Source: Bryoerythrophyllum caledonicum (lineage: Eukaryota; Streptophyta; Bryopsida; Pottiales; Pottiaceae). From it: a stretch of DNA of 64,000 bases. Below are positions 1 to 44,934 of the stretch, piece by piece (positions within the stretch are counted from its first letter, which is position 1; the number at the start of each line of letters is the position of its first letter). The stretch lies in contig OZ020519.1 of the NCBI GenBank assembly GCA_963971425.1, positions 9,068,028 through 9,132,027 of the forward strand, given 5' to 3'. A model generated the notes under the pieces. It made no database searches. It was not told where the DNA came from and worked only from the letters and a program-made list of their open reading frames with translations. The translations under genes were made by a program, and so were the position numbers.

Positions 1-3000
1 AAAAGGTGGTTTTGATTGAGGTGATGGGGATTTTAAATGTTTCTTCAAGGGTTGTCATTGAGGGAATGAAGGTGGTGGCCCTAGCACCCGCGGTGATGAC
101 AATGAGGGGGTCTACTTTCCATCCTAATGTTTGAATAGCGTCAAGTAATGGTTGGTATTTGTTTGTTTTGTTTGCAATAGTGTCCGGAGAGAATCTATCA
201 TTGCAATATGTGAATTCAATAAACTGAATAGTGAGACTCGGGTCTATGTGGTTTGGTGGTGGGTCTTTGTGTGAAAGCCCTCTAACACATAGTAGGTCTG
301 GTTTGAGTCTTGCATTGCAGTGGCATCTTTGAGTGTGACAAATGCATGGTAAAAGCCAAGGGGGGACCGTATTTTCTTGTGGGTTGTCATTAAAGGTTCC
401 TGCATTCATGAGAATGAAGCACCGGGATTTGGTTGATGAAATAAGTAGTTTACGAATAGCCCATACGGCTTTGTTATGTCTTTTGACAATTAATGAGTGT
501 ATATGAGGGTTTTGGCACTTGAGTAAGACATGTAGCCATGTGTCCCGGTCCGTGGTGTTGCAAATTGGGCATGTAATTGTAGGGAATCTTTCAATTCCGA
601 AGAAGAGTTGTTTGCGGGCATTTCCCATGTATTGTCCGGTGCGGAATTTGATTAGGCATGTGATTTGTGCGTCCGTAATTATGGGGTTTTTCCAAAAATT
701 GTTGGACAGTTCGTTGTGAATATTTGGGTTGCCGGTCCATTTATCAACATTGGGGAAATTTTCTGTGAGTTTTTCCAAGTTATTTACAAGATCATGTTTT
801 TTGAGGTATTTGTCCAAAAAACGTATGGGTCCTTTGTCTGGAGTTTCTCCCATAGAGGGCCATTCATATCTGTGAAAGTAATATGGGGTGGCATGGGCGT
901 GTTCGTATGGGTGTTCTGCATTTTTGTGGGTTTTTTCTTTTCCTTCCTTTGCTAGTTTGTCGGCTTGTTCATTGCCGTCAATATTGGCATGAGCACGGAC
1001 TTTGTGGAGTGTAGTAATCTGTGTGCGATTTTGAAGCATTGTAACCATAGATGTAAGGATGGTTTTGTCCGGGTGACTGTTGTGTAAAGTGGGGTGTTTT
1101 ATGTGTGTATTAAGGAGATATAATACATTTATGCAATCTGTAAAAATGTGAGCCGGTTCGTTTGGGTATTGAGTGGTGATTATCTTAAGGGTTTTGTGTA
1201 TAGCCATCATTTCGGCTCTTAGGATATTTTGGAGTCCATGTAGTCTTTTACCTAGTTTTATTTGTTTGGTTGAATTGTATACCCCATAACCTGCTTTTTC
1301 TCGGTGCCAGTGTCCTGGGCTTACTTCGGTTGGTTCTTTGAAGGAGCCGTCAGTGTAGTAGCTAAAGTTGGGGTCAAATTTAAGGACGGTATTGGTTTGG
1401 TAGTTGGGGAATGGAAGGTTCATTTCGGTAATTGGTAGTGCAGAGATGTTTATGTGGGGGGTTTTAGACCATTTTTTGTTACGGTTTACACGGATTAAAA
1501 TAGGTGTGGGTGGGGCAATAGCGGTGTATACCTTGTTGATATTTAGATTTTTTGCTATTAAAGTGAGATGAGTGAAGTTTTCCATGTTACCTATTTCTTG
1601 AGTTTGGTGATGTATACATAGAATACGTAAGGTTGCTGGTTCAAGGCGGGGTGTTAGTATTTGCGGTGGTATAGTGGGTTCTTTATATGTCATAGAGTCC
1701 GCTTCAAATAGTACTATGATGTGGGAGTCCGGGAATGGGCCTGAGTGTGGGTTAGAGTTTTGGTACCATTGAGTGTCGGGAGTGATAATAATGGTGATGT
1801 TGTGGTTAGGATCGTTGTTTGCCGCTAGGCGTGCCCAATGTATTGCTTGTTGAGTTTCTACTTCGTTGTGAGGGTGTGCAAGGCCTATTCCGCTCCATCT
1901 ATGATCAAAGGCTTTTCCGAGAGACCCAAAAATCTTATCCCGCTCGAATGGGGAGTAGAATTTTGAAATTTTTGTGGAGCATGTAACGGGAGATGAGAAG
2001 TATGAGTGTGTGATATTCATAGATGTAATAAGGTAGTTTAGGATGGGGTCGGGTAATGTGTAGTGTGCATTTTTAAGAGGATCATTTTTGGGTATACGGT
2101 ATTTATATCTCTGATATAGCCAAACAATTTCAGTTTCGAATGTTTGGGGTGTTGGTTCAATGTTAATGGGGGTTTGTAGTGCGTTTTGGTATTGGTTCCA
2201 CAGCCATTGTAGTCTAGTGAGTGGTATGGTTATTAGATGACTCCCATTACCTTCGTATATGTGGGCATTATCTTGTTGTATTTTGATAGTATTTGTTTGT
2301 GCGAGGATGTCTGTTTCGGGGTTACATTCGGTTGTGAAGATGTTAAGGAGGGGGATAATAAGGGGTGGCGTGACAAATCTATTATCTCGAGGTTGTGCTT
2401 GAGGGTGGTGTAATTGTATGATACTTAGGTAGTAATTGTTTTGAGTTCTAAGGTAGTATTGTGTGAGAATTTTGGTGTTGTGTAAGGAAGTATTTGGGTT
2501 GTGCCACGGAAAAAGATTTCTTTGTGAGAGCCATTTGGTATAGGTGGTGTTATTGTGGGACCAATGGCATAGGTATGACGTATATTGTTTACTTATGTTG
2601 TAAGAATCAATGTACTTTCTATGTTTGTGCGCGGTTATGTTGTTTATTGGATGTATGGAAGGATTTTTTAATATATGTGGTGGGGGGGTATATGGTCGTG
2701 ATTGTGGCGGATTTAGGGGAATTAATGGGGGGTTGTTGTTGGGGTGGATGTCATTGTGGCTAATGATGTACGCGTCTTTAAGTGTGTAAGGTGGGGCGTG
2801 AGTGGTGCAAGGGTTGGGGCATATAGGGAGGCATGTAGGGTGACAAAATAATTGTTTAGCAATATTTAGTGCACTTTTTATTAATTTGTGAGGGGTACCG
2901 TAGAATGTTTTGTAGCTCTTGTCGTCCATAAGGTGTGTTCCATTTGGTAGTGTAATTTGTTTTAGGTCGGTAATGTTTGCAGAAAAAAGTTTTTGTAGGA

Positions 3001-5353
3001 GTTTGTCGGATAATTGACAGTCAAGTCTAGGGAGGTTATGTATTTCATTTGCCCAGTTTTGTTCGAGCGGCGCGGGGCCTGGTAGGAAATCTTCTAGTGT
3101 GCTTTTTAGAAATGTTTGACCTTCTGTTTTGAGTAAGAAGAGTGTGCGGGTAATGGGAGACCGAAGACAATCAGTTTTTTTAAGTCTTTGGAGGTATTGT
3201 GCTCCACCATAAATGGCGAGGGTGTGCCGAAGGAGTCCACTATAGATTAATCCTAGTCGTCCCTTGTCGTTAAGTGCATTCTGGAGTTGTTCACCAATGC
3301 AACGTAGATAGGCATTTTTGAGGGAAAAAGCTTCTAATCCGAATAGTTCGTGGGGGAGTTGTGTAATGACATTGGGCGTGCAATTAGGGAGTCCGCATAC
3401 TTTCTTTTGTAAGGCTATGATTTTTTTATCAAGTTTGTTTATGGCGGGCATGGAATAAGGGACCGCATAAAAACTATATGAGATACCCGGACGTATGACG
3501 GTATCAATCATTTTTATTTTTTGTTGCAATGTGGCCGGACATAGTGTAAGTTCCTTGCATTGTTTAATTAGTTTTGTAGTAGTAGCTTGGATTTGAATTT
3601 TCCATTTTAGTGATGGGACTAGGTTTATTCCAAGGTATATGTAGGATTGATTTTGGTTGAGAACTGGAATTGGTTGGTTACGATATTGGATATTGGTAGC
3701 TTGAATGAGGGCTTTGAATGCGGTCGGATTTATTTTGGATTTATTTGGGCACCCGGTTACGGCACATTTCTGGACCCCAAGTTCCATCCCGGTCCATAGA
3801 CAAAATTTGTCTATTTTGTCTAATTGAATTTGGAGTGATTTAAGGCGACCGGAGATGGCCGCTAGATCGTCGGCATATGCAGCGGAGTTTACGGTGATTT
3901 CTGAGGTGCCAAATGTGTAGCCATTATTGCCTCTTTGAAGCCATCTCAATAGAGGTTCTAGAAAAATGATAAAGAGGTATGGGCTCAGTGTATCGCCTTG
4001 AATGGTACCACGTTGGATGGGGATAGGGCGCGTTTTACCAAAGAATTCTCCGGTGTATGTAGTTGTAGATTGAGAGTATATATTACCAACCAGTTTGACA
4101 GCGTCTTCTGGATATCCAAGATCACTCATTATGGCTAGCAATCGAGGATGGTCAATGGAACCGAATGCGTTTTTAAAGTCAATGTAAAGTATGTAAATGT
4201 CTTTATTAGTGAATTTTGCATCTTCAAGTGCGGCAATGAGGGTTTGAAGTTGTCGTGTGGTACTTCTCTCGGCTCTAAATCCTTCTTGGCTTTCGTGTAG
4301 TATTTGGTGTATTTCCCCGTAAGCCGATAATATTGATGTTAGTGTGCTAGTATATAATTTATAAATGGTGTTAGCTAAGGCAATAGGTCGGTGGTTGGGT
4401 AGCACATATGGGTTTCCTTTTTTGTATAATAAGATTGTTAGACTTGTTTTCCAAGATGCGGGAATGGATTTTTGTTTGTAACAATGAAGGAAAAATAATG
4501 ATAGGAGGTCGTGGAATCTTGGGGGCATATTTTTTAGAATTGAGTTGGGTATATGGTCCGGGCCGGGGGCTTTGTTAGTTCCCAAATTTTTTAGGCACAT
4601 GTTGTATGTGTCTCTGTTATAATATGTGTGGAGAGGTATTGTTGGTTCGCCTCTTTTGTCAATGGTGAATCCGTCTAAGTCATGCCACGGGTATTGCCTA
4701 ACTCCGCACGTGCATGTTGATGTGTGTTGTGGTTGGAAGTGGCATGGGGGGGTGGTTGGTCTATTGTTTATGGATTGTTGAAAATGTATTTCGTTTGCAA
4801 TGTCATCAGGGCTCGTTAGAATGTTATTGTTTTGGTCTAAGATGCAATCTAGTGGTAGGTTTGTGTTATTTTTGAAGACTTTTCTATTAATCTTTTTTGG
4901 GCTAGTTTCGTACAGTTGGCGGTATTTAGATATGGCTTTTTTGACACATTCTCTTGCATATCTTGTAGTAATTTTTCGAGCTTCTGTATTGGCATTTTTT
5001 GCAATGATTGCAATGTCTTTTAGCCATTCTTCGTGAGAGGTGTTAGGTAGTGGTATTTGAGGGATATGAGGGTGACGGAGGTTTTGTAGTTCGGAGATTA
5101 TGGGGTGGGTTCGCCAATTATGATTAGTTTTAGCGGTGTAAATTGTTTTGCGAATGGTGTGGTATGTAGCAAGGTGTTGTTTCCACTTTTTGGCTAGTTT
5201 TCTCGGGAGATATCCCCCTTGTTTTGACGTTCGAGGTGTGAGATGTGGGATCGAAGGCGCTTTACAGGTTTTTTCTAAAATAATAGAAATTTCATTAATT
5301 AGTTTGTCAAGAGTCTTGCAAGTTTCTTGCCATTGTATGTGTGTAAGGTGTTG
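1..5353 (-). CDS. LINE A ORF2, C-terminal part: RT, chromodomain-like, RNase H and RLE (partial at window edge)
   Basis: The minus frame with codons at positions 2 mod 3 appears open from the insertion at 5353 to base 1. Landmarks sampled along it are in one frame. RT motif A (YIDFKNAFGSID) lies at 4151-4192 and motif C (AYADDLA) at about 3857-3880. A chromodomain-like stretch (YLCHW...KWLSQRNLF) lies near 2.5 kb. A methyltransferase-like segment lies near 1.7-1.9 kb. The RNase H motif HIFTDCINVLYLL is at about 1115-1150. The C-terminal RHNKAVW, KPDLLCV and FIEFTYCND motifs of a restriction-like endonuclease lie at roughly 460, 300 and 215. No stop was found at the points checked, and the frame leaves the window without one. 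The frame also matches ORF2 on the other side of the insertion, so this is one gene interrupted once. Confidence 0.8.
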
Positions 5354-5431
5354 GAGGGGGAAGTAGTTCCAGTTTACTAATTCCTTGTCCGGTGGGCATG
5401 GTCTTAGTAGTGGAACGAACAGACACTTTAT

Positions 5432-7699
<2,268 letters not shown>

Positions 7700-14129: not shown

Positions 14130-14292
14130 TAACACACACCCAAATATAACACTTAAAATCACTAACATAAACAAATCACCAAAAAAACCCATAAACAAAA
14201 ACTTACAAACAAACATGAACAAAAACACCAAAACCAAAAACATAAAAACAAAAGATTATCCAAAATACACATATAAACCAAAAATAGTATAA
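13285..14292 (+). CDS. LINE B ORF2 leader, low-complexity Thr/His/Asn/Lys-rich
   Basis: 335 codons in the ORF2 frame, opening at a GTG that overlaps the ORF1 stop; no ATG in the standard position. The first half translates a (CA)/(TACA)-type microsatellite into Thr/His/Tyr/Ile. The second half has Asn runs built of AAT triplets (14071-14123) and Lys/Asn-rich sequence. It ends in TAA (14290-14292). After that single stop the same frame continues into a degenerate 2A and the 2764-codon frame. It is equivalent to the poly-Asn leader of LINE A and has no recognisable fold. Confidence 0.6.
13430..14124 (+). repeat. CA/TACA-rich microsatellite and (AAT)n run inside LINE B leader
   Basis: About 530 bp of irregular ACACATAC-type repeats (13430-13965) are followed by an (AAT)n run of about 17 triplets at 14071-14123. 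The reading frame of ORF2 runs through both without a stop. The strand is almost devoid of G. Confidence 0.85.
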
Positions 14293-14310
14293 CAACATAT
14301 AAAACCCTTA

Positions 14311-14364
14311 CACTATAAAGGCTTACTAATACTTAGCAAAGACATAGAAAACAACCTAGGACCC
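14311..14364 (+). pseudogene. Degenerate 2A motif, LINE B first copy
   Basis: In the ORF2 frame the peptide reads LLILSKDIENNLGP and then Met-Pro. The Pro of the essential NPGP is replaced by Leu, and GG is replaced by SK compared with the intact copy at 15.6 kb. On the known requirement for NPGP it should not support skipping. Confidence 0.75.
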
Positions 14365-17300
14365 ATGCCCAAAGTACTAAAAAGACACCCCAGAATACAT
14401 AAGATAAACGCCAAAAACTACTTTATACCAAACACCATAAAACTACAACCAGAATACAAACATATTACTAGAACAATTGCACCCCTCCTCAATACCACAC
14501 ACGCCCCACACCAAGTACATAACTCAACACACCCAAACGTTGCCCAGTATACACAACAAAAAAATACGCACCCATCAACACATATACTATACGCCATAGT
14601 AATTACCATTCACCCCAAACCTGACAAAAGTAACCGACTGATAGAATTACAAAACCCAAACACAACCACATGGACTAACACACTATTACAAACCCTATCA
14701 AACTTACAAAACCCACCCGAAAGAAACATTAACACTCCACACCCTTACACAACATTCATGGAAGCTAACCTAAACACCATAAACCACAACACATCAATAA
14801 ACAAAAAGATATATGACTTTATACATAACCAAAACACACCCCCACCAAATGACATGATAAAACAAAAATTTCCCTACCTTCCAGACACAAAGATAAACGG
14901 ATCACTAAAATGCCTAAATCCCTTCCCAGAATATACACACCCACCCCCAACGACACATCACATTTCATCACAAAACCACAACCCACATACAAACAACAAC
15001 AACACAAACAAAATAACAGGGAACGCTTCATCCCTTAACACCGCACTCCCAAGCCTACAAAACATAGTTACCCACACTAACACACCACCGGCACTCATAG
15101 TTATACAAGAAACAAAAGTCTCGGCCACAAAATCCACAAAACACATACAAAGACTATTTCCAAATACATATACTAAAACAATTACCAAAACACATACAAA
15201 TAAAAACTATCAAAAAATACATATAAATACATATATATACACAAATATAAATACTACCTACAATACGCACACACACACCAACACAACACCCACCACATAT
15301 GAAAAAAGATGCAAAAATACAAGTCAATATATACATATCAAGAATAACACAAACCAAAGTACAAAAACAAACACCAAACTAATTAACAAAAATAACATAC
15401 AAAACAATAAACCAAAACAAAAAAATAAACCTAAGAAAATCAATACAAGGGAAACCCACTTAAAAGAAAGAAAACATAATACTCACATTCTTCAATACAA
15501 GGGAAAAATCAAAAACAAAACAAAACAATATATTAGACAAACAAAAAAACATACAACCATTAAACATAATAACAAACCACCACACTATAAACTACTACTA
15601 ATACTTGGAGGAGACATAGAAACCAACCCAGGACCTATGCCAAACGTACTAAAAAGACACCCAATACAACACAAAAAGAATGCCAAAATATATTTCATAC
15701 CAAACACAATAAAATTACAACCGGAATATAGACATATTGCCCAATCATTTGCACCTTTACTAAACTCCACACATACACTACACCTATCATACGCCAACAC
15801 ACACCCACACATTATCCAATATATACAACAACAAAACGAACATCCCTCACCACATATCCTATACGCTATAGTAACTACAATCCACCCACACATAGACGAA
15901 TGTAACCTCATATTAAATCAACAAAATCCAAACATAACTCAATGGACTAATGCACTACTAAACTCCCTTGCTAACCTACATAACTCTCCCGAAAGACACA
16001 TTAACACCCCACACCCTTATATATCATTCATTGAAAATAACCAAAACATTATAAACCATAAAACATCAATACATAAAGAACTTTATGATTTCATACACAA
16101 TCATCGTACACCACCATCACAAGATACTATAAAACAAAAATTTCCATACCTTCCCAACAATCTAATTATTGAATCACTAAAATGTCTCGACCAAATACCA
16201 GAATACACCCACCCACCCCCCCCACCCCCTTACCTACATCCACAAAACCAAAACAATAACCCAAATCACGAAAATACATATATAATCACATGGAATGCCT
16301 CTTCTCTAAACACTGCCCTTCCTAGCTTACAAACTCTGGTTACATATACGAACACACCGCCAGCCATTATAGTTATACAAGAAACAAAACTATCCGCCAC
16401 AAAATCCACAAAATACATACAAAATATATTCCAAGACTATAAACTCATTTTCAACAATACACATGCACTCACAAGATGTATCCAACAAAGGAGACCATAC
16501 ACACCGGGCCGTGGAGGTCTCCTTACACTAATACATAAAAAATATGCTTTCCCGGGCAACATCAAGAAAATCCCTACCCCTGTGCACATATCTCCTTACC
16601 TGCAAATAATCAAAATCACTAACTATCCACTACAACCATGGCTAGTCCTTCATATGTATATGCCATCTCACCCCGAAGATACTAGATTTATCAATGACAT
16701 ACAAAACACTATCACAACTCAAATAAATAACAACCCAAACCACACATATGTACTATGTGGTGATTTCAATAGAGACATAGCATTAATTGGGCGCCACAAT
16801 GGAAATCATAACACCCCTCCTCAAATCATAGACCACCAATGGCGCCAATTCACCGAAAACCTAAACTTCAATTACATCAAAACCGACACACAATTCTCTA
16901 GACAAGGGGGCTATAATTATAGTGATTGGAGTCTAATAGACGGATTCTATATAAATGCCAACAATAATACACAATACACTTCTACAACAAACAAAGATAT
17001 TATTCTAAACTCGGACCACTCACCTATACATCTACACATACCAAATAACACTTTAATTAATAGAACTCCCACAACACTAAACAATGACACTATATGCATA
17101 CTCAACCCCATTCCAAAAGATAACTTAGAAAAATTCAATACAAAATTCTTTGAAGAACAATCCACACTAATAGACTCCCTCATAAATACTCTTGAGAATA
17201 ACAACCAACTATCACGAGTACAATGGCAAGAAGCATGTGTAACCCTAGACACACTCACCAACGAAATCTCCAACACACTAGAACAAACTTGTAGAGCACA

Positions 17301-20300
17301 CCCAATACCCCAATTAACAAACAGAATATCTCAACAAGGAGGATATCTACCACGAAAACTCTCTAAAACTTGGAAACAACATCTTACTATATACCATGTT
17401 ATACGAAAAACTATAAGACTTGTAAAAAATAATTCCCAATGGCGCAACCACCCCATATGTAATGAAATACTAACTCTACAAAATAGCCAAATTCCCACCC
17501 CACCGCCCCCGGATATGCCCCATGATACATGGATAAAAGATATCGCATTAATTGCAAAAAACGCCAACATACAAGCCAGAAAAATAACTTCAAAACACAC
17601 CAAAGATAACGTTAAAAAAGCCATCTCAAAATATAGACAAATATATGAAATAAGTCCTAAAAAAATCAATAGAAGAGTCTTTAAGAATCTAGAATCCCCA
17701 CCACTAGATTGTATCACAGATCAATTTAACAATATTTTAACTAGCCCAGAAGACATTGCGAATGAAATATTCAACCAACAAACAAAAACCAATAGACCAA
17801 CAGTACCAACATGCAACTACCAACTACAACATCATAATAAATGTACATGTGCAGTACGCCAATATCCATGGCATGACCTTGATGGATATACCCTGGAGAA
17901 AAGAGGTGAACCAGAAATCCCACTACATCAATACCTTAATAGAGCCACATACGACACATGCCTTCAAAATCTTGGTAACAACAAAGCCCCAGGCCCAGAC
18001 CGCATACCAAACTCAATACTCAAAAACATGCCTCCAAAATTTCATAAATTATTATTCCTATTTTTCTCTCACTGTTATAAACAAAAACAAATACCGACCT
18101 CATGGAAATCAAGTGCAACAATATTACTATACAAAAAAGGTGACCCATCTATACTACCCAACCATAGACCAATTGCACTAGCTAACACAATATACAAATT
18201 CTTCACTAGTACACTCACCTTTATACTATCCTCATACGGCGAAAAATTCAAAATCCTACATGATAGCCAAGAAGGATTTAGAGCAGAGAGAAGCACCGCT
18301 CGACAAATACAAACTATAATAGCTGCACTAGAAGACGCAAAATTCACTAACCAAGATATATACATATTATATGTTGATTTTAAAAATGCCTTTGGTTCAA
18401 TAGACCATGCCCGACTTCTAGCAATAATGATAGACCTTGGCTACCCAAAAGATGCCATCACACTTGTAGGAAACATCTACTCCCAGTCATCCACTCAATA
18501 TATTGGTGAACACTTTGGGAAAACAAAACCCATACCTATAGAAAGAGGAACCATACAAGGAGACACCCTTAGCCCATATTTATTCATTATATTCTTAGAA
18601 CCACTACTTAGATGGCTAGAACGAGGCAACAACGGATACACGTTTGGCACATCACAAGTCACAATAAACTCTGCCGCATACGCAGATGACCTCGCCGTCA
18701 TAACTAACAAAATCAAACATGTACAAATACAACTCAATAAAATTGATAGATATTGTAAATGGGCTGGTATGGACGTAGGTGTTCCAAAATGTGCCGCTAC
18801 CGGATGCCCAAACAAATCCAAATTAAACCCTACCACTTTCAAAGCCCTAATACAAGCCTCTAACATTAATTACCGCAATCAACCAATCCCCACACTACAT
18901 CAAAATGAGCCATACATATACCTAGGTATAAATCTTGTCCCTTCACTAAAATGGAAAATCCAAATCCACGCTACAACCACAAAACTCATCAAACAATGCA
19001 AAGAACTAACAACATGCCCAACCACCATGAAACAAAAAATAAAAATGGTTGATACCGTACTACGCCCAGGTGTGGCATACAGTTTCTACGGTGTACCATA
19101 CTCTATGCCAGCTATCAAAAAACTTGATAAAAAAATAATAGCCATACAAAAAACCATATGTGGATTACCAAAATGTATGTCAAATGCAATAACCCAACTA
19201 CCACATAACCTATTTGGACTTGAAGCTTTCTCCCTAAAAAACGCATACCTCCGATGTATAGGCGAACAACTGCAAAATGCTTTAAACGATAAAGGAAGAC
19301 TTGGGAAAATATATAATGGATTAACTCACTATGTCCTTGCCCAATATGGTGGCGCTGAAAACATACCGAGAATTAAAAAAAGTGACTGCATAAGATCACC
19401 AATAACACGAACATTCTTCTTATTAAAACATATAGCTAAAGCCCACCTTAAAAGTACGCTCCCGAACTTCCTCACTAATCCTACAACACTAGAAATACTA
19501 TGGCGCCAAGAAACATTAAATCATAACACACTCAATGCCCAACTCTCCCAAAAGCTTCTACAAAAACTCCTCTCAAAAAATATTTTTGAACTAAACCAAA
19601 TTACCTTACCTAACGGTACACACATCATGAACAATGAGGACTTCAAAACCTACCACTTCACCCCATCTAAACTAATAAAGAGTGCCCTAAGTGTTGCTAA
19701 ACAACTATTTTGCCACATAACATGCCCCACTATATGTCATACTCCTTGCAACATACATCCATACTCTCATACACTTAAAGATCCATTCATCACCCTCAAC
19801 AATAACATCATCCCAAGAAATATTCCCACACCAACCAATCCCCCTAACCCTCCACATACATACCACCCCCGCCCCCCAACATACATCCCCAAAAACCCTA
19901 CCACATATCCCATTAATAATATCATAAACCATAAACATATCCAACACACAGACACAAATAACATACAAAATACCTACACAAAATACCTATGCCAATGGCA
20001 ACACAATGATAATACATACAATAAATGGCTCCCTCAAAGAGACCTTTTTCCACGGCATGACACCAATACCTCCACACATAACACTGAAAAATTAAAACAA
20101 TACTACCAAGAGATCCAAAACAAAATATACTCAGATATCATCCTTGCCCACCATCCACAAGAACAATCCTCAGACTCAAGGTCCGTAACGCCACCCATAA
20201 TTATCCCACTCTTAAACATCTACACAACAGAATGCAACCCCGAAAATGATATCCTTACATCCTCAAACACAATTCAAATAGATAACAATCAAGCACATCT

Positions 20301-22659
20301 ATACGAAGAAAACGGCCGACATTTACACACCATACCCATTACCCGGCTCCAATGGTTATGGAACCAATATCATACAAAATTACAATCCCCTACAAACATT
20401 GAACCAACAACCCAACCCTTTGAAACCGAACTAATATGGCTTTACCAAAGATATAAATATCGAATACCAAAAACTGACCCCCTCAAAAATGCGCAATACA
20501 CAATACCCACCCCCATTTTAGATTCACTAATATCATCCTTTAACATCGAACACTCATACTTTTCCTCCCCAATCACATGTCCTACCAAACTAAATAAATT
20601 CTACTCACCGTACGAAAGAGACAAAATATTTGGATCCCTAGGCAAGGCCTTTGACCACAAATGGATCGGAAATGGAATAGCTCACCCCCACAACGAGAAA
20701 GACATAGAACAAGCCATACATTGGGCTAGACTTGCCGCCAAACACGATCCAAACAACACAAAAACAATCATCGTCACACCGAACAACAATTGGTACCAAA
20801 ACAACAACCAACATTCAAACCCATTCCCAGATTCCCACATCATTGCATTATTCGAAGCAGACACAATACCATACGAAGAACCTAATATCCCACCCGAGCT
20901 AAAAAAACCCCGAATAGAGCCATCTACATTACAAATACTATGCGTCCATCATCAAAATCAAAACCTGGGCTCCCTAGAACAACTTGCGGAACTTACCTCC
21001 ATAACAGACAATCTAGACATACAACGACCATACACAAAACCGGCCCCACCAACACCCATACAAACCCCCGTAAACAAAAGTAAAAAATGGTCAAAATTAA
21101 ACTATGACAACAACACATTAAACTACTCCGTCATACCTCCCCCTCTCCCAAACTACCCAGCTCATACCACACCAAAATTTAACCCCGCATACAGTTATTA
21201 CACCGACGGCTCCTTTAAACCACCGGAACAAATTAGCCCGGGCTCTTGGCGAAGAGAAAAAGCTGGCTATGGCATATATAATTCTACCAAAGAAATCAAA
21301 CTAGCCAAAAGACTCCATGGACTACAAAATATCCTCAGAGCAGAACTCATGGCCATTCACAAAACACTACAAATCATCACAACAAAATACAAAAATGAAC
21401 CTGCACATATATTCACCGATTGTATAAATGCACTCTACCTACTAAACACTCAAATAACACACCCAACCCTTCACAACAGTCACCCCGACCAAACCATACT
21501 AACATCAATGGTACAAATGTTACAAAAACGTACACAAATCACAACCCTTCACAAAGTCAGAGCCCATGCCAACATTGATGGCAACGAACAAGCAGACAAA
21601 CTTGCAAAAGAAGGCCGAGAAAAAACACACAAAAACGCCAAAGACCCTCACGAACATGCTCATGCCACCCCATACTACTTTCAAAAAGAAGATTGGCCTT
21701 CCAAAGAAGATACCCCCGACAAAGGCCCAATTAGATTTCTGGGCAAATATCTCAAAAAACAAGACCTCTACAACAACCTGGACACAATCTCAGAAAATAT
21801 TCCTAACATAGAAAAATGGACTAACAATAACGACATAGACAATGAACTCTCTACAAACTTTTGGAAAAACCCCATCATCTCAGACTCACAAATAACGTGC
21901 CTCATCAAATTCCGTACGGGTCAGTACATGGGAAACGCTCGCAAACAACTCTTCTTTGGAATAGAAAGATTCCCATCCATAACATGCCCCATATGCCCCT
22001 CCACGGACCCCGACACATGGCTTCATGTGCTACTCAAATGCCAAAACCACCACATACACTCTCTAATTGTTAATAGACATAACAAAGCGGTATGGGAAGT
22101 CCGAAAACTAATCACCTCCTACAATAAATCGAGATGTTTCATACTTATGAACGCCGGCACTTTTAATAGCAATCCACAAGAAAACACGGTCCCCCCATGG
22201 CTACTTCCATGCTCATGTATGACCCAAAGATGTCATTGCAACGCTAGGCTCAAACCGGACATTCTTTGTGTCAAAGGTTTACCATACAACGACCCACCAC
22301 CCGAGAACATCAACCAAGACTACACCATTCAATTCATTGAATTCACATATTGCAACGATAGATTTTCTCCGGAAACAATACAAAACAAAATTGACAAATA
22401 TCAACCCCTCATTGACGACATCATTGCCATTGGATGGAAGGTAGACCCCCTTATTGTTATCACATCCGGCGCTCGTGCCACCACCTTTATCCCATCTATG
22501 AAAACTCTCGAAGATACCTTCAAGATACCCATTGATACAATTAAAACTACCTTTAAAAATATTAACACCATCGCTATTCAACATGCCATGTCTATTTTAC
22601 TGTATAAACGCAAAATCGAAAACAACCAAGTCCTCCCTGATAGGCAAGACCCCCCTTAG
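14365..22659 (+). CDS. LINE B ORF2: duplicated N-terminal region, 2A, APE, RT, chromodomain-like, RNase H, RLE
   Basis: One uninterrupted frame of 2764 codons. Residues 1-275: a diverged, truncated copy of the post-2A domain and the start of an endonuclease. 276-405: Thr/Asn/Lys-rich. 410-424: intact 2A GGDIETNPGP. 425-635: unknown domain. 640-890: APE endonuclease (VIQETKL, CGDFN with D800, SLIDGFY, NSDHSP with D884-H885). 1240-1460: RT with motif A YVDFKNAFGSID (D1338) and motif C AYADD (D1441, D1442). About 1865-1915: chromodomain-like (KYLCQWQ...KWLPQRDLF...LKQYY). RNase H from YYTDGS (D2281) through AELMAI and FTDC to HANIDGNEQADKLA. 2541-2680: CCHC (CPIC...H...C), RHN, KPDI (D2632) and IEFTYCND (E2659) of a restriction-like endonuclease. 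Such APE plus RLE elements are the Dualen/RandI type. It appears intact and may be recently active. Confidence 0.9.
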   Translation: MPKVLKRHPRIHKINAKNYFIPNTIKLQPEYKHITRTIAPLLNTTHAPHQVHNSTHPNVAQYTQQKNTHPSTHILYAIVITIHPKPDKSNRLIELQNPNTTTWTNTLLQTLSNLQNPPERNINTPHPYTTFMEANLNTINHNTSINKKIYDFIHNQNTPPPNDMIKQKFPYLPDTKINGSLKCLNPFPEYTHPPPTTHHISSQNHNPHTNNNNTNKITGNASSLNTALPSLQNIVTHTNTPPALIVIQETKVSATKSTKHIQRLFPNTYTKTITKTHTNKNYQKIHINTYIYTNINTTYNTHTHTNTTPTTYEKRCKNTSQYIHIKNNTNQSTKTNTKLINKNNIQNNKPKQKNKPKKINTRETHLKERKHNTHILQYKGKIKNKTKQYIRQTKKHTTIKHNNKPPHYKLLLILGGDIETNPGPMPNVLKRHPIQHKKNAKIYFIPNTIKLQPEYRHIAQSFAPLLNSTHTLHLSYANTHPHIIQYIQQQNEHPSPHILYAIVTTIHPHIDECNLILNQQNPNITQWTNALLNSLANLHNSPERHINTPHPYISFIENNQNIINHKTSIHKELYDFIHNHRTPPSQDTIKQKFPYLPNNLIIESLKCLDQIPEYTHPPPPPPYLHPQNQNNNPNHENTYIITWNASSLNTALPSLQTLVTYTNTPPAIIVIQETKLSATKSTKYIQNIFQDYKLIFNNTHALTRCIQQRRPYTPGRGGLLTLIHKKYAFPGNIKKIPTPVHISPYLQIIKITNYPLQPWLVLHMYMPSHPEDTRFINDIQNTITTQINNNPNHTYVLCGDFNRDIALIGRHNGNHNTPPQIIDHQWRQFTENLNFNYIKTDTQFSRQGGYNYSDWSLIDGFYINANNNTQYTSTTNKDIILNSDHSPIHLHIPNNTLINRTPTTLNNDTICILNPIPKDNLEKFNTKFFEEQSTLIDSLINTLENNNQLSRVQWQEACVTLDTLTNEISNTLEQTCRAHPIPQLTNRISQQGGYLPRKLSKTWKQHLTIYHVIRKTIRLVKNNSQWRNHPICNEILTLQNSQIPTPPPPDMPHDTWIKDIALIAKNANIQARKITSKHTKDNVKKAISKYRQIYEISPKKINRRVFKNLESPPLDCITDQFNNILTSPEDIANEIFNQQTKTNRPTVPTCNYQLQHHNKCTCAVRQYPWHDLDGYTLEKRGEPEIPLHQYLNRATYDTCLQNLGNNKAPGPDRIPNSILKNMPPKFHKLLFLFFSHCYKQKQIPTSWKSSATILLYKKGDPSILPNHRPIALANTIYKFFTSTLTFILSSYGEKFKILHDSQEGFRAERSTARQIQTIIAALEDAKFTNQDIYILYVDFKNAFGSIDHARLLAIMIDLGYPKDAITLVGNIYSQSSTQYIGEHFGKTKPIPIERGTIQGDTLSPYLFIIFLEPLLRWLERGNNGYTFGTSQVTINSAAYADDLAVITNKIKHVQIQLNKIDRYCKWAGMDVGVPKCAATGCPNKSKLNPTTFKALIQASNINYRNQPIPTLHQNEPYIYLGINLVPSLKWKIQIHATTTKLIKQCKELTTCPTTMKQKIKMVDTVLRPGVAYSFYGVPYSMPAIKKLDKKIIAIQKTICGLPKCMSNAITQLPHNLFGLEAFSLKNAYLRCIGEQLQNALNDKGRLGKIYNGLTHYVLAQYGGAENIPRIKKSDCIRSPITRTFFLLKHIAKAHLKSTLPNFLTNPTTLEILWRQETLNHNTLNAQLSQKLLQKLLSKNIFELNQITLPNGTHIMNNEDFKTYHFTPSKLIKSALSVAKQLFCHITCPTICHTPCNIHPYSHTLKDPFITLNNNIIPRNIPTPTNPPNPPHTYHPRPPTYIPKNPTTYPINNIINHKHIQHTDTNNIQNTYTKYLCQWQHNDNTYNKWLPQRDLFPRHDTNTSTHNTEKLKQYYQEIQNKIYSDIILAHHPQEQSSDSRSVTPPIIIPLLNIYTTECNPENDILTSSNTIQIDNNQAHLYEENGRHLHTIPITRLQWLWNQYHTKLQSPTNIEPTTQPFETELIWLYQRYKYRIPKTDPLKNAQYTIPTPILDSLISSFNIEHSYFSSPITCPTKLNKFYSPYERDKIFGSLGKAFDHKWIGNGIAHPHNEKDIEQAIHWARLAAKHDPNNTKTIIVTPNNNWYQNNNQHSNPFPDSHIIALFEADTIPYEEPNIPPELKKPRIEPSTLQILCVHHQNQNLGSLEQLAELTSITDNLDIQRPYTKPAPPTPIQTPVNKSKKWSKLNYDNNTLNYSVIPPPLPNYPAHTTPKFNPAYSYYTDGSFKPPEQISPGSWRREKAGYGIYNSTKEIKLAKRLHGLQNILRAELMAIHKTLQIITTKYKNEPAHIFTDCINALYLLNTQITHPTLHNSHPDQTILTSMVQMLQKRTQITTLHKVRAHANIDGNEQADKLAKEGREKTHKNAKDPHEHAHATPYYFQKEDWPSKEDTPDKGPIRFLGKYLKKQDLYNNLDTISENIPNIEKWTNNNDIDNELSTNFWKNPIISDSQITCLIKFRTGQYMGNARKQLFFGIERFPSITCPICPSTDPDTWLHVLLKCQNHHIHSLIVNRHNKAVWEVRKLITSYNKSRCFILMNAGTFNSNPQENTVPPWLLPCSCMTQRCHCNARLKPDILCVKGLPYNDPPPENINQDYTIQFIEFTYCNDRFSPETIQNKIDKYQPLIDDIIAIGWKVDPLIVITSGARATTFIPSMKTLEDTFKIPIDTIKTTFKNINTIAIQHAMSILLYKRKIENNQVLPDRQDPP
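15592..15636 (+). other. 2A ribosome-skipping motif, LINE B intact copy
   Basis: Encodes LLLILGGDIETNPGP followed by Met-Pro, with skipping expected between 15633 and 15634. It would separate the low-complexity leader and truncated first copy from a ~2340-residue APE-RT-RLE polyprotein. Confidence 0.85.
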
Positions 22660-22906
22660 GAACTTCGCCACTCTGTCTCTCCCTGATTGGCTGCCTGTTT
22701 GGTTTTGCTTTTTGTTGTTTAGTTTGATCGTGGTTGGTCGTTGTTGGTTGGTTTCTGGCTACTCGTTACATAGTGTCTACCCTCGAAAGGGGGAAGTAGT
22801 TCCAGTTTGCTAATTCCTTGTCCGGTGGGCATGGTCTTAGCAATGGAACGAACAGACACTTTATTCACGCCGGTTCCCTTCGGGAACCGGCGTTCTTCTT
22901 CTTCTT
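22660..22906 (+). other. LINE B 3' UTR with hairpin and TTC tail
   Basis: After the TAG there are about 210 nt of UTR, then the conserved tail (AAGTAGTTCC, GGTGGGCATGG, GAACGAACAGACACTTTATT). A perfect 10-bp stem CGCCGGTTCC/GGAACCGGCG with a CTTCG loop follows at 22868-22892, then TTC repeats to about 22906. The same tail ends the insertion at 5354-5470 and the SINEs at 32.2-32.6 kb. In stringent LINEs such a 3' structure is what the RT recognises to prime reverse transcription. Confidence 0.85.
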
Positions 22907-23643
22907 CTTTATACTTGAGCCATTAACATATTTGGCATTAAATGAAGTAAATTATAAAATATTAATGGCTAAAGGTGGACTAAGCTATTTCGTACTCAGT
23001 TTTGGCAGTCACTGTTGATCTACACTCTAATCTCCCTAACGCTACACTTGTTCGTATCATAGATCGATTTGAATTTGCCACAAGGTTTGAGATTAAAGGT
23101 TCAAGATGAGAAATGTTTTCGTATACTAAACTTATGTGGCACCATTCCAAGGGCTTATATGCATTGTTACAAGTTGCTCATGACTATGATTGTAATGAGG
23201 TTTTGTTGTAATCATCATGTGAGGAAGCAAGGGCAAATGAAAACATTCCACAAAAATTATCAAGCTTGTGGGCATCTAGCTCCAATTCACAAAAGTTACA
23301 TACATCAACTCTAACAAAGGCTTGTAGAATGATTGGAAGTTTGGTTGTAAATATGGTGGTGTAATAATCACACTTGATGGTTTTCATATGGTTTTAAGAT
23401 TATACACAATAGTAGCCAATGTGTACATCAATAGTGGCTATGATGATCCTTTGATAATATAAATTATATTGTTTTTCCTACTCTTATCAATCTTTACTCC
23501 CACTTTTTCATACAAACTCAAACATTTACAAAAGAGTTTGATTGTGAGTTCAACTAGACATTGATGTATCTTAGTCTCCATTGGATAACAAAACATAGTA
23601 GCTAAGGCATTATTAACATTTGGATAACTTTCATGGTTATTAA
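22907..23643. other. Intergenic, nothing recognised
   Basis: AT-rich sequence between LINE B and the MITE. Short frames only, no repeat or gene signal seen. Confidence 0.5.
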
Positions 23644-30683: not shown

Positions 30684-30810
30684 TAAAAAGCTATTGATGA
30701 TGTATTTGTTTTTCAATTTGCTGACATGCAGCCATTTATATAGTATTGTTAGTGTTCCTTTTGAGTAGTCTCAAAGTTGGAGACACTCTGAGAACATTGG
30801 TACATTTTTC

Positions 30811-30900
30811 TAAGTTCGTGGGCATAGACTTAGTGGTGGAACGAACAGACACTTTATTCATGTTGGCTTTCTTCGGGGAGCAGGGTTGCTCTTTGTTTTT
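30811..30900 (+). mobile_element. LINE/SINE 3'-tail fragment, diverged
   Basis: Contains GTGGGCATAGACTTAGTGG and GAACGAACAGACACTTTATT, the conserved tail, then a decayed hairpin (TTGGCTTTCTTCGGGGAGC) and a T-rich end. Heavily 5'-truncated. Confidence 0.7.
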
Positions 30901-34686: not shown

Positions 34687-36429
34687 TCATTTCTCACCTT
34701 TAGCTTTGGCCTTCTTCTTCCTCTCCTTGAGAAGATCGATCTTGGCGGCCTTCTTGGCTTGCCCCATCTTGGCCGCGTCATAGAGGCCACGCGCCTTGCG
34801 CGTCATCATCATCCTGCCCATCTGCACAGCTTCGTCACCTTCCGGAAGAGCAGCTCCCGAAGGTGAGGTAGCATGCGCTTCTTCAGCGGCAGCAGATGGA
34901 GTGAGAGAAGCGGAGTAAGAGATCCCCGCCATCTCCTTGCTCAAGTCATGAGTGAACGCCTTCTCCAGCGAGACGGTGGCCTCGGGAGCTGGAGCTGTGG
35001 TGAGGTTCTCAAACACAGGCAGATCATTGTCCGCTTGTTGCATGCGCTTGATGGTTTCGGCGTACTCTGGGACGTAGCCCTCGGCTTCGCTGTCCACGAA
35101 CGGCGAGAGATGCGGCGGGCAGATCTTGCCGACTAAGTAGGCGTCCGAGGGGAGCAGGAACCTGTTGTTCACGCTGTCGAACACCCACTGCGGCTGCACG
35201 TACTCCCGGGAGAGGAACTTGTGGCCTTGGGTGGGTCTGTCCACGATGTGGTGCGTGATGGCCTCGTCCGACTCGGGGAAGGGCGCGCCCTCGCCGTCCC
35301 ACGACACTGCGCCGCCGAAGGCACGGATCACAAAGAGGAGGGCTTCGCGAGGGACCTCTCTCGAGAGGAAGAACTTGAATTCCTTGAAGAGCTTCACTGA
35401 GGAGTCCATCTCTTCGTCGTCGTCGTCCTCGGGTGCGGGTGCAGCGGGTGTCGTCGCTTGCTCCTTGTCGATCGCTGAGAGCCTGGTGTGGAGCGAGGCG
35501 AGCCTAACTTGCGACTCGAGAGTGCGTGGGTCTTCCATTTCGGTGTCGGAGTGATCAGGCTTGGGTGTTTCTTCGTCTACTGCGACTGGGGTGGCAGCGG
35601 CAAGGCCTTTCATCAATCCGTAGAGTTCGTTGGCGGCTTTCTCGAGGTTGGCGTCGAGGAGAGGCGGATACCGGAGGCCGAGGTCGTGGTAGAGCTTGAA
35701 GTTGACGAAGCCGACGAGGGTTTTGTAAAACTCCAGGAAGGTGAGCATGACGCGGAAGTCGACGTCGGAGGGGAGGACCTGGCTGGTGGAGTGGGGGGTG
35801 AGCCAGGTGATGGACTGGCCGCCGACTTCGGCCTGGTAGTACACGCCCTTGACGGAGACGAACACTTTCCGAAGCGCGCGCACGCGGATGCAGTACGCCT
35901 GCCACTGGAGGGAGAGGCGGCGCGCGCTCTCGATGTGCTCGGGGCGGATCTTCTGGCTGTTGTCCGCGGGCAGCCATGCGAACAGGTGCAGGATGGTGAG
36001 CGGGTCGTCCAGGTCGCGGAGCGCGTCCACGAACGACGGGTAGCGCTCGTTCACCAGGTGGTTCAGGTTCCACTCCGGCTTGTTGCCCAGCAGCCGCTGC
36101 ACCAGGTCCAGGTTCCGCTTCGCGCGCGCCTTGGTGATCTTCTTCTCATACGCCTTGAGCTCCCGGCTGCGGTCCAGCAACGGTTCGTGCGCCAGAAACG
36201 CAATGTCCTTCACGTGGTAGTACGTCTTGTTGTGGCCCTCCACCTTCTTCCGCGGCTCCCGCGGATGAATCCCCTTCAGGATGCATAGCCGCCGAAACTC
36301 CGGCAGCTTGATCTGCAGCCGGTTCAGCGCCTTGTTCCGCGTTATGTACTTCGCCGCCTGCCCCTCCTTCCGCCGCGCCGGCGCCAGATACTGCTTCGAC
36401 TTCGACTTATGCTTCGTGGGCCTCGTCAT
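34687..36429 (-). CDS. PES: Pescadillo (PES), 60S ribosome biogenesis factor, single exon
   Basis: 580 residues from ATG 36429-36427 (MTRPTKHKSKSKQYL); an upstream in-frame TTG is not used here because pescadillo proteins start close to this point. The protein is a nucleolar subunit of the PeBoW complex (PES-BOP1-WDR12) needed for 27S pre-rRNA processing and large-subunit assembly. The N-terminal pescadillo domain is evident (KYITRNKALNRLQIKLPEF, RRLCILKGIHPREPRKK, HIESARRLSLQWQAY). An acidic linker follows (EDDDDEEMD), then a BRCT domain (residues ~345-440: FKFFLSREVPREALLFVI, FGGAVSWDGEG, YVQPQWVFDSVN). The C terminus is Lys-rich. Length matches the family. No introns, which is unusual for a plant PES gene but the frame is intact. 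It is transcribed divergently from the CGR3-like gene. Confidence 0.96.
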   Translation of the reverse strand: MTRPTKHKSKSKQYLAPARRKEGQAAKYITRNKALNRLQIKLPEFRRLCILKGIHPREPRKKVEGHNKTYYHVKDIAFLAHEPLLDRSRELKAYEKKITKARAKRNLDLVQRLLGNKPEWNLNHLVNERYPSFVDALRDLDDPLTILHLFAWLPADNSQKIRPEHIESARRLSLQWQAYCIRVRALRKVFVSVKGVYYQAEVGGQSITWLTPHSTSQVLPSDVDFRVMLTFLEFYKTLVGFVNFKLYHDLGLRYPPLLDANLEKAANELYGLMKGLAAATPVAVDEETPKPDHSDTEMEDPRTLESQVRLASLHTRLSAIDKEQATTPAAPAPEDDDDEEMDSSVKLFKEFKFFLSREVPREALLFVIRAFGGAVSWDGEGAPFPESDEAITHHIVDRPTQGHKFLSREYVQPQWVFDSVNNRFLLPSDAYLVGKICPPHLSPFVDSEAEGYVPEYAETIKRMQQADNDLPVFENLTTAPAPEATVSLEKAFTHDLSKEMAGISYSASLTPSAAAEEAHATSPSGAALPEGDEAVQMGRMMMTRKARGLYDAAKMGQAKKAAKIDLLKERKKKAKAKGEK

Positions 36430-40755: not shown

Positions 40756-41684
40756 ATGGAATCAGCACTCACGAGCAGAGAACTTCAGGAAACAACAAAG
40801 CTACAAGGCGCCAGCAATTACACACTTTGGTCTTTCAAGGTTGGAATGACACTATGCGGAGAACGCATCTGGCATCTCACAGAAACTGATACCAGTTTTC
40901 AGGCATTAACACTGGATGAATCCAACGTAGGAGAATCATCAACTGCTATCAATACAAGCTCGACCAAAGTACGCGGGACGAGCAAGATAAATCAAATGCC
41001 ACAATAGACCAACAACAACTAGAGGACCAGAAGACCAGAGCAATGCGAATCATCGTCTCTACAGTTAAGGACTCCATACTTCCTCACATCATGCCTCTTA
41101 GAGATCCTAGACAAATGTGGAACAAACTCCGTACTCTCTATGAATCAACGTCCATCAATAAGAAGCTAACTCTAAAGACTCAACTGTATAACTTGCGAAT
41201 GTCTGACAAAACGAGCATCGATGACCACCTGAGAAACATCAGCTCCCTTGTAGCACAATTAGCAAACATCATCGTAGTTTTACCTGATGAAGAACTCGTA
41301 GAGAGAATTCTCATGAGTCTCCCAGAATCATGGTCCTTCTACTGCCAATTTATAACAGCCAGGGAAAATCACGTTTCATATACAGAATTAGAATCACTCT
41401 TTCTACAAGAAGCTGAATGCAGGTCGCGCTACAAGACTCGCAACACTACTGAAGAAGCACTCTATACAGAAGGCATCTACAGACCCCGTGGAAGAGGAAA
41501 TAGAAATCGAGGTTCATGGAGGAACACCGGCCGCTTTCACAGCACGACTACAAGAGGCGGCGTCAACACGACGGTTATCAGGTGCCATCTGGCGGCAGTG
41601 CTCCAGCTCGCGGCAGTAGTACTCCAGTCCACGGCGGCACACGATCTCACTCAAACAGTCTATATAGACTCAACACATCACTAG
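40756..41684 (+). pseudogene. copia gag, frameshifted
   Basis: Starts ATG 40756 (MESALTSRELQETTKLQG). SNYTLWSFKVGMTL is the usual copia gag N terminus. A stop and frame change near 41005-41043 precede the UBN2-type core (DPRQMWNKLRTLYES, LYNLRMSDKTSIDDHL, LMSLPESWSFYCQ). The Arg/Gly-rich end (RPRGRGNRNRGSW) stops where a CCHC knuckle would follow; none is present. Confidence 0.8.
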
Positions 41685-41699
41685 CAGGAAGGACGCCCA

Positions 41700-44600
41700 A
41701 GCTTTCCTCATCTCCCTCACTAAACCTTGCTTCTCTCACCCCACCAGGACTTATTGAACTATGGGACAAACGGTTAGGGCATCTAGACTATCAAACACTG
41801 CATAAATTCTCATGTCAAGGATTAGTGACTGGATTACCACCTCTGAAAAATGTTCATTCTACTTGCCAATCTTGCATCCTAGGCAAGCAACATATTCATC
41901 CCATCCCTCGACAAAGCCTTTCCCAAACAACAAGACCTTTAGAACTTGTACACTCATACCTATGTGGACCATTCCCACATGCTTCTCTTACAGGCTCCCG
42001 CTACGTCCTAACCTTTGTAGATGACTACTCCAGGCATACATGGACTACTCCAGGCATACATGGGCATTTTTTATATCTACCAAGAGTGACACCTTCACAA
42101 TTTTTCAGAATTTTCAAAGTATGGTAGAAAAACAAAACTTTCTTTCTATCGCACGACTCCGTACAGACTGTGGTGGTGAATTTCTGTCAACCGACTTCAA
42201 CCATGATTGCACTCAACAAGGGAGTACACGCCACCTAACCACCGCTCATACACCACAACAAAATGGCGTCGTTGAACGGAAGAATCGTCACCTATGCGAG
42301 ACCATGCGTACGTTATTATTTGGAGCAAATTTACCAACAATACTATCGGAAGAAGCACTTCGAGCAGCCACATATATATCTAATTGAATGCCTCACCGAG
42401 CTCTATCTATGACAACTCCCCACGAAAGATATACTGGCAACACACCAGACATCTCACATTTACGAATATATGGCTGTCGCGCATACATTCACCTCAAAAC
42501 AGGTAACAAACTTCAACCAAAATCCTTGGTTTCTACACTTGTAGGGTATGACGACCAATCCAAGGCCTACAGATGTTTTGATCCCTCAAACAACAAAATC
42601 GTGATTTCTAGAGATCTCATGTTCCATGAAAATACTCTAGGTCTTCCCTCTCCAACCCCATCCAATGTCTCAAATTACAAAAATATAGAGGAATTTCTAC
42701 TCCGAAACTCTCCAACATCATCACCTTATCATGATGATCTCGGTCGCAGGCAGCTCCAACAACCCAACCTAGCTTCGACGTCGTCCCCTGCATACGACAA
42801 CACCAAATTAGACCTATCCAGTCCCACATCAGTCAACCCCCACTTCCCTGAACCTCCCTCCCGAGACCTACATACGGACATCACCCAATCCAGTACCCTC
42901 CCGGGTCTCTTCGAGCCGTGCATCTCCCCGGGTATTACCCCGACCCCACCTATTCCAACCGTCTCACATGACACCCATCCCGGCTCTCAACTTACGCCGA
43001 GGACTTCATCTTCAGGGCACTCCTTGCCGGTTCTAGACAGTCGAACCTCGCCAACCTCTTATTCTTCTGGATAGAACTTACTGATTCCAGGTATATAGAT
43101 ATCGCCAAGTTCCTCTGCCACAACTTCAACGCTGCTACTTATCACTCCACCAGAAGTATCTATCAGTAACACTCATGATCAAATCAACTATGACGTCTCA
43201 CAACATCCTCTACGCCGCTCAACAAGATTCAGGAAACAAAGCGTGAAGTTAGACGACTATATTCTCTCTGTAACCCCAGAAAACTTCAACATCTACTTTA
43301 TTGAAGCTGATGCCGGCATCACTGGTGATAATATCACTTATCATCAAGCATCACAACACTCCGGATGGATTGATGCCGTGCGCAATGAAATGAATTCCAT
43401 TCATAGGAATCATACTGGGAATCTAGTTCCGTTACCAACCAACAAAAAACCAATCACAGCCAAGTGGGTATACAAAACCAAACCTGCACTACCCGGAGAA
43501 GCACCACGACTCAAAGCCCGCCTTCTGGCTCGCGGCTTTCAGCAAAGACATGGCATTGATTTTGAAGAGGTCTTCGCTCCTATTGTAAAATGGTCCACCA
43601 TTAGAACAATTACAGCCCGCGCATCTCAACTCGGACATGACATTCACCATCTAGATGTCAAAACCGCATTTCTATACGGAAATTTAGAGGAGGAGGTATA
43701 CCTGGAACAACGACAAGGCTTTGTAGAACCCAGCCAAGAACACCTTGTCTGCAAGTTAAAATAGGCATTATATGGCTTAAAACAGAGCCCTAGGGCATGG
43801 TACGCACGCATCAACATATACCTAGTTTCACAAGGTTTCACACGTAGTGGAAGTGACAACAATCTCTATTACAAAGGTTCAGGCGACAACAAAACCCTCT
43901 TAGTTGTCTACGTAGATGATCTATTCATCACCGGCGGAGACAAAGAAACCATTAGTTGGTTAAAAAAACAACTCAAGATAGAATTTGATATCACCAATCT
44001 TGGCATAGTCAATAAATACTTAGGGGTAGAATTCAGACATCTCCCATCTGGCATCTTTCTAAACCAATCCGAATATGCTATTCAAATCCTAACCGAAAGC
44101 GGTATGTTGGAATGCAAACTTGAGCATGTTCCACTTCCCCCCGGTTTTCATCTTCTTACTGATATGGGATCACCAGAAGTTGACTCCACCTCTTATTGTA
44201 AACTGGTCGGACAATTGATTTTTCTCACCAACAGACGTCCCGATCAAGCCTTCTCTGTCGGCCTTGTCTCTAGATACATGACTGTACCACAACAAACTCA
44301 CCTGGATGTTGTTCACGACATCCTCTGCTACTTGAAGAAAACCTTCTCGTATGGCCTATTTTACGCCCGAACCATTACAAACCACATCCATGGCTACACC
44401 GATGCCGATTGGGCTACATGCCACGAAATCCGTCGGTCCACCAGGGGTTACTGCTTCATCCTCGCCGGAGCTGCTATCACCTGGCAATCCAAACGTCAAC
44501 CCACAGTAGCCAAGTCCTCCACAGACTCTGAATATGTCTCTCTCTCTATTGGTGCCTCTGAGGCCACCTGGCTTCGTTGCCTTATCTGTGAAATTCCTTC

Positions 44601-44934
44601 CTCAGCCATTCCCCCACACTCATCCCTTTCTTTTATCATCACAAGCCAACAAATCCGTGCAAACCTTGACACCTCCTCCCCTATCCTTGTTTACTGTGAC
44701 AATCAATCTGCTATTAAACTAGCCAAAAATCTTGTTTTTTATGCTAGGACTAAACACATAGAAGTTGCACATCACTTTGTGTGCCAACGCGTTTTGAAAG
44801 GAGAAATAGAGCTTCATTACATTTCAACAGATGCACAACCCGCAGATATCTTCACCAAACCCCTATCACGTACAAAATTCGAACTACACAGATCAACTCT
44901 AGGTATCACCTGCCCCACTTCTTCTCAAACCTAG
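41700..44934 (+). pseudogene. copia pol: integrase, RT, RNase H, broken
   Basis: The integrase zinc finger (KRLGHLDYQTLHKF, CQSCILGKQ) follows gag almost directly, so the protease is deleted. The first catalytic Asp is replaced in LVHSYLCGPF. The second (VDDYSRHTW) lies in a 20-bp tandem duplication at about 42025-42064 that shifts the frame. The Glu motif NGVVERKNR is present. In-frame stops occur at 42385-42387 (TGA), 43072-43074 (TAG) and 43762-43764 (TAG). RT motifs VKTAFLYGNLEEEVYLEQ and VVYVDDLFITGG, and RNase H motifs YTDADWA, KSSTDSEYVSL and VYCDNQSA, remain readable. The last domain ends at 44934. Confidence 0.9.

Follow-up and report, generated by a model that had tools for sequence, protein, structure and literature searches.

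The window analysed here, a stretch of 64,000 nucleotides, contains two long copies of one LINE family. LINE B is a single open frame of 2788 codons from stop to stop (14293..22659, plus strand); position 14365, taken as its start by the first-pass annotation, is a methionine codon directly after a decayed 2A-like peptide. LINE A, on the minus strand (2..7114, read 7114-2), is cut by the start of the window and aligns with LINE B in one frame over residues 431-2754, at 68% amino acid identity. Its single in-frame stop sits within its one interrupting insertion, a family copy of 118 bp that has lost most of its 5' part (5354..5471, plus strand) and is flanked by an 11-bp target site duplication (TSD; GTAAGGTGTTG, 5343-5353 and 5472-5482). 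Sequence comparison also revealed an older 3'-end fragment of the family at 30798..30888 (plus strand). A low-complexity repeat with a 9-base period (7152-7537) adjoins LINE A on its 5' side; it gives an asparagine run in the LINE A frame and may be part of the LINE 5' region.

The host could be judged from a pescadillo gene at 34690-36429 (minus strand). Its product is 84% identical to that of Ceratodon purpureus and 60% to that of Sphagnum, with named vascular plants at 57% or less among the 120 matches listed of 5532. Marchantia reached 71% over 47% of the length, and four further rows stood at 82-85% and one at 70%. By this protein comparison the host is a moss, and not Ceratodon itself.

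The first-pass annotation had described one frame with APE, RT, RNase H and CCHC-RHN-KPDI motifs, and every motif it named is present in LINE B. Pfam matches comprised Exo_endo_phos (residues 665-837, 8e-7), RVT_1 (1284-1547, 5e-27), PCIF1_WW (2031-2165, 3e-10) and RNase_H (2300-2442, 2e-12), and the full order of the product is 2A, N-terminal domain, APE, RT, CAPAM-like domain, RNase H and restriction-like endonuclease (RLE). The extra modules that had been suspected, but not named, are therefore a 2A peptide and a PCIF1-like domain. LINE A had been said to keep all the motifs; it carries NSDHFP and KPDLL as variants and the one in-frame stop, the rest being the same.

The N-terminal domain (15637..16260, plus strand; about 208 amino acids) had no Pfam match above the cut-off, the best being Tuberin at E 0.006. 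It is followed on the same strand by the APE-type endonuclease (16285..17082; QETK, CGDFN and NSDH), identified by Pfam and alignment. Its catalytic residues are kept across relatives: D824 in 17/17 rows, D908 and H909 in 15/15, and the glutamate, scored by eye, in 14/16, with aspartate in P0005 and P0009 unaligned at that point. The RT (17833..19212, plus strand) was recognised by Pfam, by the RT tree and by sequence search, which revealed kinship with R2, and the RNase H (21190..21618, plus strand) by Pfam and alignment.

The C-terminal segment (21973..22620, plus strand) has the CCHC zinc motif, RHN and PD..E..K of an R2-type RLE. Within it, C96, C99, H109, C114, R126, H127, P186 and E214 were invariant in a 15-row alignment, and D187 and K230 nearly so. 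In the numbering of the whole frame, E2683 was present in 14/14 rows and D2656 in 13/14 (glutamate in one); Lys 2699 was nearly invariant, and position 2702 was lysine in only 2/15 rows. Searched alone against the PDB with phmmer, the RLE segment gave no match. Since such searches were too weak for both this and the CAPAM-like segment, we predicted their folds. The RLE model had a mean pLDDT of 79, and Foldseek returned seven matches at E<=0.001, every one an R2 protein, spanning both the helical/zinc part and the nuclease core. The fold comparison that the first-pass annotation had proposed thus gave a predicted R2-type RLE fold, and together with the Pfam match and conserved residues of the APE it bears out the proposal that two types of endonuclease are encoded in one frame.

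A search with the conserved part of LINE B returned 37 proteins. In P0004-P0007, matches to PCIF1, RT and RNase H are accompanied by one to OTU or Josephin towards the N-terminus, at the place where the moss element has its N-terminal domain. This protease match lies below the Pfam cut-off in P0004-P0006 and above it in P0007, which also has APE and 2A and a PCIF1 match below the cut-off, and in P0021, from the volvocine green alga Pleodorina starrii, which reads Josephin-APE-RT in a record that ends within the RT. A second search, with RNase H plus RLE, returned 170 proteins, with identity of up to 88% among the 120 matches listed; judged by these protein matches, the group bearing RNase H and RLE is widespread. 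The LINE-like protein P0036, a distant relative, is unusual in having an accessory SET domain (PF00856) alongside its RT.

APE, RT, RNase H and a CCHC motif can all occur in plant L1 elements, whose RNase H is named in PMC4640811. One alternative reading of the locus would be an ordinary plant L1-type LINE, with a C-terminal zinc region that resembles an RLE by motif only. The RT tree bears directly on this. Its alignment took in 50 sequences and kept 48 (a 5' piece of LINE A without RT and the too short P0003 were left out), and the tree has 44 rows, since moss_B, L014, L015 and C2Aminus were omitted as duplicates or near-duplicates. The moss elements grouped together with support of 100/100, with P0005 as sister (99/96), inside a 24-row clade (99/98) whose better preserved members have APE and RLE. 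R2, the L1 chain, Fusarium and Choristoneura rows and rows with PF02902 fell outside; several of these are long-branched, so their order is unsure. The one named algal row of the clade, P0021, is treated as Dualen on the ground that all core-Reinhardtinia examined are reported, in the text available to us, to have such families (PMC8226300). The phylogeny suggested at the outset thus places the RT apart from the L1 chain, other APE rows and R2, in an APE-plus-RLE clade that includes a volvocine alga. This position outside L1 (represented by one row), the predicted R2 RLE fold of the C-terminus, and the retention of the PD..E..K set as far as distant relatives together make an ordinary L1 element highly improbable.

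A cysteine protease domain is reportedly an accessory feature of Dualen (Kojima and Fujiwara, 2005), and the moss element has no Pfam match to OTU or Josephin. Dualen/RandI is defined by APE and RLE in the same element and is listed with RNase H (PMC4640811, as excerpted), and the moss element has all three. The first-pass annotation had used the same definition, which holds, but its restriction of the group to green algae was too narrow, as Dualen LINEs are listed for cryptophytes as well (PMC12747079, in part). The moss element further resembles the elements of Chlamydomonas, other volvocine algae and cryptophytes in an RT position apart from R2 and L1 and in a microsatellite 3' tail, which is (TTC)n here and (ATT)n or (CTATTT)n in the RandI elements described in PMC3747384. 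It differs from them in its moss host, that tail, a 2A before the polyprotein and the missing protease match.

Likeness to R2 is confined to RT sequence kinship and the zinc-motif/RLE fold of the C-terminus. R2 carries an RLE, is not known to have an APE, RNase H or a CAPAM-like domain, and is site-specific, inserting at one site in 28S rDNA. In contrast, the moss element has an APE, occupies dispersed sites and falls outside R2 in the RT tree. The element very probably belongs to the Dualen group of non-LTR retrotransposons, and its reading as a dual-endonuclease element was right. The suggestion of a land-plant branch likewise agrees with the moss host and the position of the RT; in the literature searched we found no land-plant Dualen case, among the matches listed. 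Two LINEs in Physcomitrium patens, reported without a clade in the part of PMC7466625 available, could be an earlier sighting of a relative.

We then compared dN/dS by domain for pairs among LINE B, the young copy C2A, L013 and L016, LINE A having dS at or near saturation. Values were 0.08-0.12 for APE, 0.07-0.11 for RT, 0.10-0.18 for the CAPAM-like domain, 0.05-0.13 for RNase H, 0.07-0.11 for RLE and 0.16-0.21 for the N-terminal domain. The highest upper bound of the 95% bootstrap intervals was 0.37 (N-terminal domain), and those of APE and RLE were at most 0.20. The stretch from the CAPAM-like domain to RNase H was looser (0.28-0.41). The RLE of L014 gave 0.36 over 161/210 aligned codons, which we put down to its shifted end. 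Purifying selection therefore acts on each of the six domains tested. Both nucleases are kept by selection in transposing elements, a constraint that is silent on which reaction each performs.

The domain between RT and RNase H (20248..20937, plus strand) was assigned to the PCIF1/CAPAM type by Pfam, fold and alignment. Its predicted fold matches PCIF1/CAPAM; with phmmer against the PDB the moss segment reached PCIF1 at E 0.64 only, and the corresponding segment of relative P0006 did so at E 3.6e-5. Its likely CAPAM-like identity thus rests on Pfam, the modelled fold and this relative. PCIF1/CAPAM is a cap-specific adenosine N6-methyltransferase with a catalytic NPPF, whereas the moss domain has AHPH and lies within a retrotransposon polyprotein. 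The domain could nonetheless be an active N6-adenosine methyltransferase that marks the cap-proximal adenosine of the element, for instance stabilising or hiding its RNA: the fold and Pfam score are clear, selection on the domain is strong, and loss of the motif is not uniform, P0005 and P0006 retaining ANP. However, NPPF is complete in 0/15 rows and its asparagine is kept in 2/15, and we regard activity of this kind as unlikely. We infer instead a CAPAM derivative with a degenerate catalytic motif, which would bind the element's own RNA at its capped 5' end without methylating it. Plant-lineage retrotransposons that carry a methyltransferase domain have a precedent in the captured cytosine methyltransferases of charophytes and dinoflagellates (PMC5890265, in part); those are cytosine DNA methyltransferases, in contrast to the cap-adenosine-type fold seen here.

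The 5' part of LINE B is duplicated. Ahead of the 5' coding part lies an older copy of it in tandem (14230..15151, plus strand), which has 73% nucleotide identity to 15505-16423 and contains the decayed 2A-like peptide LLILSKDIENNLGP (14323..14364, plus strand), recognised by its sequence and the duplication. The possibility that an extra ORF1 occupies the first 430 codons was considered and rejected. Since residues 1-430 are a decayed duplicate plus low-complexity sequence, the conserved polyprotein corresponds to about residues 441-2788 of the frame. The upstream sequence differs among other moss subfamilies, and L013 and the near-identical L014 and L015 have two intact NPGP motifs in frame, at frame positions 472 and 537. 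Such varied 5' parts would be explained if template jumping by the RT had repeatedly added pieces at the 5' end.

An intact 2A (StopGo) peptide, LLLILGGDIETNPGP, lies immediately before the N-terminal domain (15592..15636, plus strand). Its DIETNPGP fits the pattern (D/G/C/N)(V/I)ExNPGP (given in PMC12846837), and 2A is described as functional in plant cells generally (PMC4981915). This last source, as far as it was available, also describes non-LTR retrotransposons with a 2A from trypanosomes and other species, which share D(V/I)ExNPGP in a retrotransposon protein with the moss element. Odon 2013, a paper cited in PMC12846837, calls such elements APE-type in its title, and we met no RLE-bearing 2A retrotransposon in the literature searched, part of which consisted of excerpts. 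The motif in the moss element might be an unused relic, with translation beginning at the conserved methionine: a methionine directly follows NPGP in the five moss copies examined, and the sequence before the 2A is hardly alignable between moss subfamilies and holds no conserved protein. Against this, the 2A forms a stretch of 25 codons constrained between moss copies while the remaining upstream frame is much less constrained, and P0004, P0007 and P0016 also have the motif ahead of the next domain, as against 0/258 other proteins compared (120 of them C-terminal pieces, unable to show it). We regard an unused relic as unlikely. We favour a putative 2A activity, judged by the motif: translation would start upstream, and the ribosome would skip a bond at the 2A, so that the enzyme polyprotein would be separated from a short leader that evolves fast.

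At the other end, folding and alignment of the 3' UTR (22660..22907, plus strand) indicated two hairpins followed by a (TTC)5 tail (22893-22907). For the two-hairpin structure of 26 pairs, 88.9% of cells in the 3'-end alignment (A4) could pair and eight pairs were changed on both sides, compared with 34-44% of cells for slid versions of the structure. Within-pair shuffling gave a mean of 86.3%, reaching 88.9% in 0/500 and eight double-changed pairs in 29/500. The 23-base core of the alignment is invariant by choice of the search pattern and so uninformative. The fold z was -5.1 for the window copy and -1.0 to -1.5 for the three other sequences folded, and RNAalifold's own consensus had 19 pairs, against 26 in the structure tested. 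The evidence for the hairpins is moderate; together with the UUC tail they would be the recognition signal for the RT.

The abundance of the family was assessed in the 437 Mb assembly. A PF12237 search gave 2614 candidates, of which 150 were scored; all of these exceeded the cut-off, and 33 lay in a frame of exactly 3087 codons. Ten of these 3087-codon copies matched an eleventh at 999-1000/1000 bases on the 5' side and 800/800 on the 3' side. The 23-base word of the 3' end occurred 3148 times with at most one mismatch, and its reversed control not once. The family, known here from genome sequence alone, is therefore large and recently active, with thousands of full or partial copies.

Young copies end in a (TTC)n tail and were flanked by a TSD in 24/29 cases with both anchors; its length was 10 bp (1 copy), 11 (4), 12 (13) or 13 (6), and its first T could be part of the tail. 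Of 31 copies fetched, two lacked an anchor and three a match, and one chance-size match of 7 and one neighbour duplicate were also dropped, leaving the 24 used. A convincing TSD was not found for 4/29 young copies, nor any for LINE B in the window. Site-specific insertion was rejected, as the sites differ and share a weak preference at the nick, its first T possibly coming from the tail. Small 5' truncations were usual, and strong ones (67-152 bp left) occurred in 9/29 loci read, these being the first places on one contig rather than a random sample (L083 of 30, unoriented, was left out; L001-L008 and L012 contributed a listing or frame length only). A SINE parasitising the 3' end of the family was also rejected: the nine shortest loci have no common 5' head and differ in their break points, and are thus truncated copies. 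Tail, 10-13-bp TSD and 5' truncation show that the insertions are products of target-primed reverse transcription. Exactly one extra G lay between TSD and element at 6/24 junctions (L018, L020, L022, L039, L053 and L063), as left by non-templated addition or cap copying.

Random breakage would explain the narrow range of TSD lengths less well than a second cut made at a defined distance. We therefore propose a division of labour, in which one endonuclease would nick the first strand and the other would cut the second, with a constant offset of some 11-12 nt between them; alternatively, one nuclease may act twice. It is also possible that one nuclease cuts and the other is retained as a DNA- or RNA-binding module. 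In R2 the zinc knuckle/RLE region belongs to the core by which target and RNA are held; by analogy a non-cutting RLE could still be conserved, the R2 fold match does include the helical/zinc part, and neither conservation nor dN/dS separates cutting from binding. A dead nuclease would, however, be expected to lose its catalytic residues, as happened to the motif of the CAPAM-like domain in this very protein, and those of both RLE and APE are retained in the proportions given above. The binding-module reading is a real, if minority, possibility. Our fuller scheme, in which the nucleases would split nick and priming from the second-strand cut while the CAPAM-like domain would hold the capped 5' end, such that capped RNA would be the preferred template, is equally tentative. 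If it is true, the moss family would be a living model of the stage in which LINEs changed from RLE to APE. The position of Dualen has been interpreted, in the portion of PMC4640811 at hand, as evidence that APE elements arose by replacement of the RLE.

Taken as a whole, we assign a probability of roughly 85% to the reading of the locus as a Dualen-group LINE of a large, recently active moss family, including the proposed roles of the 2A, the 3' signal, the two nucleases and cap binding. The APE-plus-RLE architecture would then be represented in a land plant by a large and recently mobile family rather than a relic. Because its two nucleases are under similarly strong selection, the role of each is directly testable. 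The conserved CAPAM-derived domain suggests unsuspected cap sensing by a retrotransposon of its own RNA; for the 2A, the suggestion is one of translational recoding in a mobile element of plants.

Other mobile sequences appear to share the window. A 1075-amino-acid frame with DUF7869 (E 2e-50) at 58012-61239 (minus strand) is perhaps another transposon protein. Two frames with HTH_Tnp_Tc3_2 (46487-47089 and 49363-49872, plus strand) lie in surrounding DNA that is 70-73% alike, and frames at 40920-44934 (plus strand) resemble, by eye, a broken Copia-type LTR element.
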